Of a stretch of 64,000 nucleotides of DNA, positions 57,305-60,112 are shown one piece after another. Source of the stretch: Tianweitania sediminis (GTDB lineage: Bacteria; Pseudomonadota; Alphaproteobacteria; Rhizobiales; Rhizobiaceae); assembly GCF_017813335.1 (NCBI RefSeq), contig NZ_JAGIYY010000002.1, positions 620,001 through 684,000 on the forward strand, given 5' to 3'. Each line of letters starts with the position of its first letter. Within the stretch, counting starts at the first letter, position 1. The notes below the pieces were generated by a model. It searched no databases and had not been told where the DNA came from. It was given only the letters and a program-made list of their open reading frames with translations. Position numbers and translations under genes: made by a program.

Positions 57305-57747
57305 GCCATGATTCAAGGCCCGTCACGATCGTCATGGTCGAGGACGACGAGGGCCACGCCCGCTTGATCGAGAAGAACATTCGCCGCGCAGGCGTGAACA
57401 ATCCCATTGTGCCCTTCCAAAACGGCACGGATGCCTTGGAATACCTGCTTGGACCTGACGGGTCGGGCCAAGCAAGTTCCAGTCGCCAGCTGCTGGTGCT
57501 TCTTGATTTGAACCTCCCGGACATGACCGGCGTCGACATTCTCCAGCGCGTCAAGGCCAACGAGCACACGCGCCGTTCGCCGGTGGTGATCCTCACCACC
57601 ACGGACGATGAGCGTGAGATCCAGCGCTGCTATGATCTCGGCGCGAACGTCTATATCACGAAGCCGGTGGACTATGACGGCTTTGCCAATGCGATTCGCC
57701 AGCTCGGCCTGTTCTTCTCGGTGATGCAGGTGCCGGAGACAGCCTGA
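57301..57747 (+). CDS. Single-domain response regulator, Rcp1-like
   Basis: Receiver-only protein of 148 aa with a GTG start overlapping the kinase stop. Acidic pocket Glu14-Asp15-Asp16, phosphoacceptor Asp69 in LLDLNLPDMTG, and Lys121 in ITKPVDYDG are all present. The loop around residues 52-62 is longer than usual, as in Rcp1-type regulators that receive phosphate from bacteriophytochrome-like kinases. No output domain, so it probably passes phosphate or acts by binding, perhaps to the next protein. Confidence 0.88.
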   Translation: MSHDSRPVTIVMVEDDEGHARLIEKNIRRAGVNNPIVPFQNGTDALEYLLGPDGSGQASSSRQLLVLLDLNLPDMTGVDILQRVKANEHTRRSPVVILTTTDDEREIQRCYDLGANVYITKPVDYDGFANAIRQLGLFFSVMQVPETA

Positions 57748-57748
57748 C

Positions 57749-58789
57749 GTGCAAACACGGCCGGTTCACATCCTGCATATTGATGACGACGCCGCTCTGG
57801 TCAGGCTGGTGGAGCGAGCGCTGACGCGTCGCGGCTTCACCGTCGAGAATGCAGCCGACATCGATGCCGGCCTGGCGCGGATCAGGGCAGGCGGTCTGGA
57901 TGCGGTTGTGCTCGACCACTACCTCGCATCGGGAACCGGCCTCACCGTGCTGCACGCGATGCGCGATCTGACCGATCCGCCTCCGGTGGTTTACGTGACG
58001 GGTTCCATGGAACCGGCGCTGGCCGTCGATGCCCTCAAGGCCGGCGCGGAAGATTATGTGTTGAAGTCGGCTGGTGAGGACTTCGTCACCTTGCTGGCCA
58101 AGGCGCTCGAGCAGGCCATCAACGCGGCGCGCATGCGTCAGGCCCATCTGCGTGCAGAAGCAGAAATTCGCGCCGCCAAGGATCGCGCCGAGTTGCTGCT
58201 GGCCGAAGTGAACCATCGTGTCGGCAACAGCCTGGCACTTGTTGCGGCCCTCGTGCGCATGCAGGCGTCTGCCATTGCTGATCCCGGAGCCAAGGAAGCG
58301 CTGGCCGAAACGCAGGTGAGGATCTCGGCCATAGCCAACCTCCATCGCAGCCTTTACACCTCCGACGACGTGCGCAACGTGGCACTCGACGATTATCTTG
58401 CCACCATTGTGGCAGAGCTCGGCACATCCATGAGCGCGTCCGGTCACAAGCCGCTCGTGAAGCTCGACCTCGATCGCTACAGCATTCCCACGGACAAGGC
58501 CGTTTCGGTTGGCATGATCGTCACGGAACTGCTCACCAATGCCCTGAAATACGCTTATCCGACCGAGGAAAAAGGCGAGGTCCGCCTGATCCTGCGCCGC
58601 TCCGAAGATGGCGCGGCACTTCTCACGGTGGAAGATGACGGCATCGGCTGGAACGGCACGGGTGTTGCCAAAGGCACAGGTCTCGGCTCGCGCATCGTCA
58701 AGGCCATGGCAGCCAATCTCGGCGCCACCATCACCCACGGCGACGGAGTGGGCGGGACCTGCACCAAGCTGGTGCTCGCCGAAAGCTGA
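57749..58789 (+). CDS. Receiver-HisKA_2/HWE-type histidine kinase hybrid
   Basis: Cytoplasmic protein of 346 aa with GTG start 2 bases after the previous stop. Receiver domain residues 1-125 with Asp56 (VVLDHYLAS) and Lys106. HisKA_2 domain with His156 in AEVNHRVGNSLALV, then ATPase motifs ELLTNALKYAYP, DDGIGW and GTGLGSRIV. Kinases of this class feed the alphaproteobacterial general stress response or single-domain regulators. The receiver input may be phosphorylated by the upstream kinase, making a chain. It ends 12 bases before a displaced tRNA-Arg fragment. Confidence 0.88.
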   Translation: MQTRPVHILHIDDDAALVRLVERALTRRGFTVENAADIDAGLARIRAGGLDAVVLDHYLASGTGLTVLHAMRDLTDPPPVVYVTGSMEPALAVDALKAGAEDYVLKSAGEDFVTLLAKALEQAINAARMRQAHLRAEAEIRAAKDRAELLLAEVNHRVGNSLALVAALVRMQASAIADPGAKEALAETQVRISAIANLHRSLYTSDDVRNVALDDYLATIVAELGTSMSASGHKPLVKLDLDRYSIPTDKAVSVGMIVTELLTNALKYAYPTEEKGEVRLILRRSEDGAALLTVEDDGIGWNGTGVAKGTGLGSRIVKAMAANLGATITHGDGVGGTCTKLVLAES

Positions 58790-58801
58790 AACGAAGAAGG
58801 G

Positions 58802-58849
58802 TGGCGATCCCGGCAGGATTCGAACCTGCGACCATCGGCTTAGAAGGCC
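58802..58849. repeat. Displaced 48-bp copy of the tRNA-Arg 3' half (distal att site)
   Basis: Identical over 48 bp to 59568-59615, from the CCA end of the tRNA-Arg gene through its anticodon loop, in the same orientation. Such displaced 3' halves are the scar of tRNA-targeted integration by tyrosine recombinases: the intact tRNA is rebuilt on one side and the old 3' end is left on the other. Confidence 0.88.
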
Positions 58850-59016
58850 CAAGCCAGCGGTTGTTTTCGCTAGGTTTCCCGTCGCTATGTCGCAGCCATA
58901 AGATGGTCAAGCACAATGAGGGTGCCGATAAGAGCGCACGCTAACAGCCCGAGAGAGAGAGAGCCAACACCACGTGCTTCTTTCTCGTTCTGAACAGATT
59001 GGCCTTGTAGTTCGGG

Positions 59017-59211
59017 TCAGTCTGCATACGACCTAAGTCGGTTACGACCAGATGCCCGATCGTAGCGATACAGCAGATGATCACGCCGAATAGGACCGAG
59101 ATAAGGTTTGGTGTAGGAACTCAGCCATTGTGTTGCCTTCAGCCGCCCAACGGTGCAGAAGTTGTGATCATAGCTCTGCAGGAACTCATCAGCATTCGGA
59201 CTGTCGCTCAT
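59017..59211 (-). CDS. Hypothetical small protein in the tRNA-Arg remnant
   Basis: Candidate ORF of 64 aa starting MSDSPNADEFLQSYDHNF; a GTG at 59241 would add 10 residues. It contains GRLKATQWLSSYTKPYLGP and a basic C-terminal stretch. No domain recognised and no clear ribosome site, so it may be a decayed fragment of a longer gene. It lies inside the island, 54 bases after the 52-aa ORF and on the same strand. Confidence 0.35.
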   Translation of the reverse strand: MSDSPNADEFLQSYDHNFCTVGRLKATQWLSSYTKPYLGPIRRDHLLYRYDRASGRNRLRSYAD

Positions 59212-59264
59212 TCCGATGTCTCGCTTTATGTCCGCAATCACGCCGACGGATTAGACGTGCTCGC

Positions 59265-59423
59265 TTAATTTGCTATGCCGAGACGCTTCTCTTCAACCTT
59301 GGCATAGCGCTTCGCGTCCTCTTTATTTGAGAACTCGCTTTCCTTTGTCTGGCCGTCCTGAGAGACGCGAACCTTCCAGTTTTCGCCGGACTTCTTTTCA
59401 ACGCGTACTGCTACTTGGCTCAT
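59265..59423 (-). CDS. Hypothetical 52-aa basic protein in the tRNA-Arg remnant
   Basis: Short ORF starting MSQVAVRVEKKSGENWKVRV and ending EEKRLGIAN. It is charged (many Lys and Glu), with a predicted beta-rich first half (VAVRVEKK, WKVRVS) and a helical second half (NKEDAKRYAKVEEKRLG), like a compact single-domain DNA- or protein-binding module; this is inference from pattern only. It reads toward the distal att site, away from the tRNA. The cluster of inverted repeats lies 18-108 bases upstream of its ATG and could form its leader or promoter region. Confidence 0.55.
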   Translation of the reverse strand: MSQVAVRVEKKSGENWKVRVSQDGQTKESEFSNKEDAKRYAKVEEKRLGIAN

Positions 59424-59440
59424 GTGGTCATTCCGTTTTC

Positions 59441-59531
59441 ATGTTGCAGTCCACGTCGCATCGATTTGCCGCGCACCGGTGCAAACCGTTGAAAATCAAC
59501 GCTTCTCAATTGCAACATAAATGCGACGTGG
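59441..59531. repeat. Cluster of inverted repeats in pseudoknot order
   Basis: ATGTTGCA (59441-59448, A) and CCACGTCGCAT (59451-59461, B) are matched by TGCAACAT (59511-59518, A') and ATGCGACGTGG (59521-59531, B'). The order A-B-A'-B' is that of a pseudoknot. Between them are a 10-bp palindrome GCACCGGTGC (59473-59482), TTTGC/GCAAA flanks, and CGTTGA-AAA-TCAACG (59487-59501). It lies 37 bases from the tRNA-side att copy. Recombinase arm sites, a regulatory RNA or a leader are all possible. Confidence 0.8.
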
Positions 59532-59567
59532 AGGGGGAGGATAGATAAGCTAAGAACTTGTTTTTAT

Positions 59568-59615
59568 TGGCGATCCCGGCAGGATTCGAACCTGCGACCA
59601 TCGGCTTAGAAGGCC
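59568..59615. repeat. tRNA-side 48-bp att copy
   Basis: The 3' half of the intact tRNA-Arg gene; identical to 58802-58849. Together they define the ends of the integrated remnant. Confidence 0.88.
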
Positions 59616-59644
59616 GGTGCTCTATCCATCTGAGCTACGGGACC
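59568..59644 (-). tRNA. tRNA-Arg(TCT)
   Basis: 77 nt with encoded CCA. The 5' GGTCCCG pairs with CGGGATC (one G-U), the anticodon loop is CTTCTAA with anticodon TCT (reads AGA), and the T-loop GGTTCGAATCC is standard. Discriminator base G. Used as an integration target. Confidence 0.95.
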
Positions 59645-59667
59645 CCGCGCCGGAGGCGCAGAACAAG

Positions 59668-59973
59668 TCAGTGCGTCCAGGGAGTGCGACGGTCGGCGCG
59701 GAAATTGTCGGAATAGGAGATCTGGCGCCGCAAGCTTTCTTTCGGCTCCTGCACGCGGAACTCGATGCCGTGCTTTTCCGCATAAGCCACGGCTTCTTCC
59801 TTGGTCTGGAAGGTGAGGCGGATCTGGCTGCGCATGTCACCCGACGAGGTATACCCCATCAGCGGGTCGATCTTGCGCGGCATTTCAGGATCATATTCCA
59901 GCACCCAATAGCCGGTCTTTGCCTTGCCTGACTGCATGGCGGTTTTTGCGGGGCTGAAGATTCTGGCGGACAT
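59668..59973 (-). CDS. NDUFS4-like NADH-ubiquinone oxidoreductase accessory subunit
   Basis: Alphaproteobacterial homologue of mitochondrial complex I subunit NDUFS4 (ETC complex I subunit family), 101 aa from ATG 59973. The conserved core includes ARIFSPAKTAMQSGKAKTGYWVLEYDP, MGYTSSGDMRSQIRLTFQTKEEAVAYAEKHG and the C-terminal Tyr/Arg-rich end. It sits on the peripheral arm of complex I. Alone on the minus strand just upstream of the tRNA-Arg gene. Marks the organism as an alphaproteobacterium. Confidence 0.9.
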   Translation of the reverse strand: MSARIFSPAKTAMQSGKAKTGYWVLEYDPEMPRKIDPLMGYTSSGDMRSQIRLTFQTKEEAVAYAEKHGIEFRVQEPKESLRRQISYSDNFRADRRTPWTH

Positions 59974-60112
59974 GAGCCGGGCTCCGGAAGGCGACAAGAT
60001 GTTTGGCTGTTTCAATAGTCCAGCGCCCGCTTGGTTGCAAAGCTTAAAAGGTTGTCGCCCACGGCCGCAGGGTTGCTGCAGCCGCGTAAGAAAAGAGCGA
60101 AACGAGGCAGCG

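Follow-up and report, generated by a model that had tools for sequence, protein, structure and literature searches.

The closest described systems, in the parts of the two sources drawn on here, are the attP site of ICEMlSym-R7A from Mesorhizobium (PMC11963761) and the attL site of prophage KplE1 (PMC2951348). The former spans 283 bp and contains five repeated arm-type motifs, all of which are needed for integration, with IntS as the integrase. The latter belongs to an element that has an IntS of its own and the argW tRNA as its target, and doubles as leader of the next gene. Two kinds of decayed element are also pertinent, again as portrayed in the available portions of the reports: cis-mobilizable elements (CIMEs), defined as decayed ICEs or IMEs that have kept both att sites and lost integration genes (PMC5704250), and grounded (cryptic) prophages, which are integrated and have lost what excision needs (PMC6379469).

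The repeat block at 59441-59532 of the window (the whole 64,000-nucleotide stretch of DNA analysed here) is, judged from sequence, very probably the P′ arm of a lambda-type attachment site in its attL form, located in a 766-bp integrase-less remnant of a tRNA-targeting element (Table 1). It resembles ICEMlSym-R7A, as far as that source describes it, in having repeated arm-type motifs, a tyrosine integrase (here found in relatives) and a core present at both ends after integration; the motif differs (TGKTGGTATC there, AYGTYGCR here), as does the number of sites (five versus four plus two), and ICEMlSym-R7A is intact and conjugative, unlike the remnant in the window (PMC11963761). The attL of KplE1, in the portion of the account consulted, likewise lies behind a tRNA and carries arm-type sites, but the gene that follows it encodes the integrase, whereas here a cargo ORF follows the arm and the integrase of the relatives is encoded at the other end (PMC2951348). 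As in a CIME, attL and attR are kept and the genes for integration and transfer are lost, although several relatives of the locus carry phage-like genes, and CIMEs are defined in the cited section as decayed ICEs or IMEs (PMC5704250). The grounded prophages of that literature, as partly seen, share with the locus its integrated state and the loss of excision functions; the window's element, unlike them, is reduced to a 766-bp insert in which no phage gene was recognised (PMC6379469). The object is of a known kind; the motif AYGTYGCR in these islands was not met in the literature searched, a search of titles and abstract starts that covered few subscription papers.

Table 1. Features of the remnant island in the window; letters in brackets are the repeat names of the preliminary description.
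Feature	Position	Strand	Remarks
Whole island with both att copies	58802..59615	−	766-bp repeat-to-repeat insertion at the tRNA-Arg 3′ end; G001 alignment, repeat offset 766
tRNA-Arg(TCT), target gene	59568..59644	−	Its part 59568-59615 is one att copy
Second att copy, tRNA anticodon loop to CCA	58802..58849	−	Identical at 48/48 positions
IHF-like site AAACAAGTTCTTA	59551..59563	−	8/9 consensus letters; 4 bp past the tRNA
Putative arm-type site s1, ACGTCGCA (B′)	59522..59529	−	Motif copy
Putative arm-type site s2, ATGTTGCA (A′)	59511..59518	−	Motif copy
Conserved centre with TTGATTTTCAA	59461..59510	−	Alignment A1
Putative arm-type site s3, reversed, ACGTCGCA (B)	59453..59460	+	Motif copy
Putative arm-type site s4, reversed, ATGTTGCA (A)	59441..59448	+	Motif copy
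Retained far-arm (P) site ATGTCGCA	58887..58894	+	67 bp from the T-arm of the att copy; register as in intact relatives
52-aa ORF, putative coding; sole remaining ORF of note behind the arm	59265..59423	−	ORF list

The insertion itself is apparent from comparison with G001, a genome of the same genus, in which window positions 57502-58849 and 59568-59985 align to one unbroken stretch with a 48-bp overlap corresponding to the core, and from which the 766-bp insert is absent. In a second genome of the genus (G002) both flanks align with approximately 620 bp of unlike sequence between them, in which the block model described below had no match, so that G001 is the one genome providing the empty site. 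The att site that the preliminary description had placed next to the block is thus present as a 48-bp tRNA duplication, repeated at both ends of the insert, and the 52-aa ORF that it had listed after the block is there as well, on the minus strand. This ORF has a weak match to DUF2188 (E 0.034, under the curated cut-off) and only weak relatives, in 3 of 199 genomes, its own included. No sigma-70 promoter or terminator was found in a scan of 59251-59720. Four motif sites stand on one side of the core and one on the other; the remnant contains neither a more distal P site nor an integrase gene, and since a search of the window's genome with the integrase of a relative gave no match, the remnant probably cannot excise by itself.

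The block had been characterised as interleaved complementary repeats in the order A-B-A′-B′, and these repeats were found in place. A (59441-59448, ATGTTGCA) pairs over 8 bp with A′ (59511-59518, TGCAACAT), and B (59450-59461, TCCACGTCGCAT) pairs perfectly with B′ (59521-59532, ATGCGACGTGGA), over 12 bp and not, as originally given, over 11 bp ending at 59531. Both elements reported between the arms, the 10-bp palindrome GCACCGGTGC (59473-59482) and the 6-bp hairpin CGTTGA-AAA-TCAACG (59487-59501), are present; the palindrome occurs in none of the other 17 rows of alignment A1, and TTGATTTTCAA, part of the hairpin, is common among them. When 59421-59560 was shuffled 3000 times with dinucleotides kept, seven shuffles contained an exact inverted pair of at least 11 bp and none contained one of at least 12 bp, and the long pair is therefore beyond chance, as had been supposed. 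All four repeat arms are copies of one motif, AYGTYGCR, two of them head-to-tail, followed by the conserved centre and two reversed copies. The A-B-A′-B′ order looks like a by-product of this arrangement of two direct repeats opposite two reversed copies, and the choice of exactly matching pairs follows from the Y and R letters that each copy carries. When raw sequence is read, paired direct repeats that face reversed copies can hence mimic a pseudoknot.

A DNA search of 394 genomes of the family returned 19 non-self places at E ≤ 0.001. At 16 of them a tRNA gene (Arg, Phe, Met, Cys or Gln) immediately precedes the block in the same direction; two short ones (L038 and L039) are without a tRNA and the third (L068) is without one that passes the filter. 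A sequence-only block model built from 18 blocks matched 146 of the 394 family genomes and 71 of 109 genera (E ≤ 0.01), and six of 240 genomes drawn from the class, the window's own included (E ≤ 0.0001); in the window's genome it has a single copy. The block had no blastn match among phage and plasmid records, nor did one exact pattern of it match viral contigs. The first set of loci comprised 22 big ones (L052-L073), of which L068 was dropped for want of a tRNA in the filter, leaving 21; with L070, which has no centre, set apart, 20 were left, and four sites could be scored in 16 of these. In the second set, 33 of 40 further loci have a whole tRNA directly upstream, adding His, Thr and Lys to the types, and six of the other seven show a tRNA 3′ end by eye. 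Only a tRNA 3′ fragment precedes the block in L158, L170, L178 and L187, as expected of tandemly stacked islands. Order and register were counted on 49 loci, 16 from the first set and 33 from the second, the latter being those of the 40 that passed a motif score of 28, so that motif and register counts on these 33 are favoured by selection.

From the tRNA outwards, the order is IHF-like site, s1, s2, conserved centre, reversed s3 and s4. The four sites fit AYGTYGCR with few exceptions, and position 5 of s2 is T in 49/49 loci. Spacing is 10 or 11 bp between s1 and s2 and 11 or 12 bp between s3 and s4, and s2 is separated from s3 by 58 bp in 48 of the 49 loci and by 57 bp in one, second-set loci having been picked with this register. 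The distance from the tRNA to s1 falls at 36-39 bp in 10/33 loci, at 49 bp in one and at 58-63 bp in 22/33. These two modes of tRNA-to-arm distance differ by about 22-24 bp, the IHF-like site moves by about 12 bp between them, and either mode is possible with the same tRNA type. Scored against WATCAANNNNTTR, which we take to be the IHF consensus, the IHF-like site was found in 20 of the 21 first-set loci, at +4/5 in 13 and at +16/17 in seven; it matches 7 to 9 of the 9 letters, and shuffles reach 7 in 36%, 8 in 4.9% and 9 in 0.3% of cases. On a rigid four-site score, the window reaches 32/32 and the 21 first-set loci 21 to 32, compared with 17 to 21 for 34 other tRNA flanks and 25 for one (L006, in which inspection revealed no such block), at most 23 for shuffles and at most 24 for the window background; the weaker first-set elements L063, L069, L070 and L073 score 21-24, within reach of the background. 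In alignment A1, conservation of the centre between s2 and s3 equals that of the sites, and the centre contains a small dyad around TTGATTTTCAA.

The far ends of the relatives connect the block with one integrase. A second tRNA copy was found in 10 of the 21 first-set loci, 0.7 to 38.5 kb away, and was not found within the stretch examined in the other 11. Seven of these 10 delimited islands encode one integrase family near the far end, L070 encodes an unrelated integrase, and L064 and the window encode none. In the second set, for which up to 20 kb was examined, nine of 40 loci have a second tRNA copy, eight of them with the same integrase family and L194 with none. This family of tyrosine integrases of about 400 aa is thus present in 15 of 19 delimited islands, the window counted among the 19, and in 66 of 394 genomes at E ≤ 1e-60. 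In 25/30 loci a direct pair of motif copies lies no more than 900 bp past the integrase gene, and in 0/30 such a pair lies before the gene, so that arm sites of one motif stand on both sides of the core, as the four plus one of the window do; nine named-record loci, three of them identical to earlier ones, show the pair in 5/9. The T-arm could be recognised in 19 loci. In 15 of these, sites stand both 77/78 and 66/67 bp away from it; L109 has only the one at 78, L112 and L113 have theirs at 98 and 87, and L108 has none. L070 has TACTCAC repeats at both ends instead of the motif, beside half a block, together with its unrelated integrase (PF13356), and is one case of the repeat going with the integrase. 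Its end is chimeric, the half block adjoining TACTCAC repeats that recur beside the far-end integrase. In L179, an island of 3.2 kb, the integrase is still present. The window's own genus has a copy of the relatives' integrase gene as well, broken by an in-frame stop (G001:C5:158821-160056).

The integrase of a relative matches PF00589 at 4.5e-16, and none of the Pfam arm-domain models matched it at E 0.01. Its predicted structure (mean pLDDT 77.9, pTM 0.53) starts with three strands and a helix, which we take to be the layout of arm domains. Foldseek and profile searches with it retrieved Tn1549, Xer and, by fold, lambda recombinases. By tblastn it hit 994 phage records, all below 60% identity, and 153 plasmid records, one of them at 60-80%.

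The four AYGTYGCR copies may accordingly be called putative arm-type sites for the N-terminal domain of the relatives' tyrosine integrase. IHF, if bound beside the tRNA, would bend the DNA, and the bend would let arm-bound integrase also hold the core, which occupies the tRNA from anticodon to CCA. Integrase binding, IHF binding, bending and strand exchange are steps that we infer; the insertion, the att duplications, the motif, its register, the integrase linkage in relatives and the retained far-arm site can be read from the DNA. Of the two functions originally suggested for the block, recombinase arm sites agree with the motif, the register, the att duplications and the linked integrase of the relatives, whereas a structured leader or small RNA is not supported, the pairing order not being conserved.

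In the 46 of 49 loci with 1500 bp downstream, forward ORFs of at least 200 aa that open from 111 bp before to 50 bp after s4 were found in 10 islands, four starting no more than 50 bp behind s4 and six opening 6 to 111 bp before it. Such ORFs number 13 across the nineteen 50-bp bins that come next, a mean of 0.68 per bin (ORF starts were counted with 300 bp upstream included, and start codons are putative). Nine first genes, picked by eye from 20 first ORFs, were compared with Pfam: four encode DUF4145, one each TIR_2, Hypoth_Ymh, DUF4238 and a predicted pPIWI-associating nuclease, and one gave no match. Several of these domains are presumably associated with defence. The tested cargo genes lie just behind s4 in L174, L176, L185, L186, L191, L195, L057, L061 and L064. 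The 52-aa ORF of the window has a position like that of the relatives' cargo and belongs to no clear family. The arm might be a dual-use module that holds the integrase and serves as 5′ leader of the cargo slot, a possibility that we consider doubtful.

A different account of the locus itself would see in the mini-island a minimal element that is mobile although not autonomous, with a sibling prophage or island supplying the integrase in trans. The window retains both att copies, all of the P′ arm and one P site, yet the distal P site is missing. Two other islands lack the integrase, L064 (tRNA-Met) and L194 (tRNA-His); each measures about 1.1 kb and has the arm block together with both tRNA repeats. 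No GCRACA pair was seen, however, within 300 bp ahead of the L064 core. The product of L064 is a DUF4238 protein, and the 52-aa ORF of the window has weak relatives only. With one copy in the window's genome and no integrase found there to drive movement, such mobilisation appears improbable.

A further account would place the block in a transcript, produced for example when transcription of the tRNA runs on past its end; as RNA, the block would then serve the gene behind it as a leader with a hairpin or pseudoknot. The minus strand of the window does fold better than shuffles (−37.4 kcal/mol, z −3.24), via the B/B′ stem, by a program that draws no knots and is thus neutral on A/A′ together with B/B′; six relatives do the same as single strands (z −2.45 to −7.18), and RNAalifold, which cannot draw knots either, predicts a nested hairpin of s1:s4 and s2:s3. 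Either pairing order does better on the alignment than most or all shuffles: shuffles were as good in cells paired in 9/500 cases for the knotted and 0/500 for the nested order, and in covariation score in 15/500 and 0/500, respectively. On the alignment, however, the two orders are equal (89.9% versus 89.2% of cells) and pairing partners switch between elements (15 knot, 12 nest, 22 tie; n=49): the knotted pairing is not kept over its alternative. Within elements s1 is like s3 and s4 (p 0.003 and 0.004, kinship among elements not corrected), but so are s3 and s4 to each other (p 0.013), a non-pairing couple whose likeness fits sites drifting together under one integrase. Moreover, s1-s2 and s3-s4 spacings combine freely, the far-arm copies form a direct pair without inverted partner, and the Rfam matches within the window are two tRNAs only. 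Some of the relatives likewise have the block ahead of a gene start. Pair counts, order counts, and consensus and single folds led us to drop pseudoknot or hairpin RNA as the main explanation; we judge it very improbable.

Read as the P′ arm of an attachment site, the block has a bearing beyond the window. Across the family, which is probably Rhizobiaceae as GTDB defines it, a large set of tRNA-targeting islands can be recognised by one arm motif in a fixed register. The motif offers a way to find island ends without an integrase, and does so even for a 766-bp remnant; it points as well to the cargo slot directly behind the arm. If the dual use is true, this slot would come under read-through transcription from the tRNA once the element has integrated at the tRNA 3′ end. 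Integrase or IHF sitting on the arm would then modulate expression of the cargo, coupling it to the integrated state.
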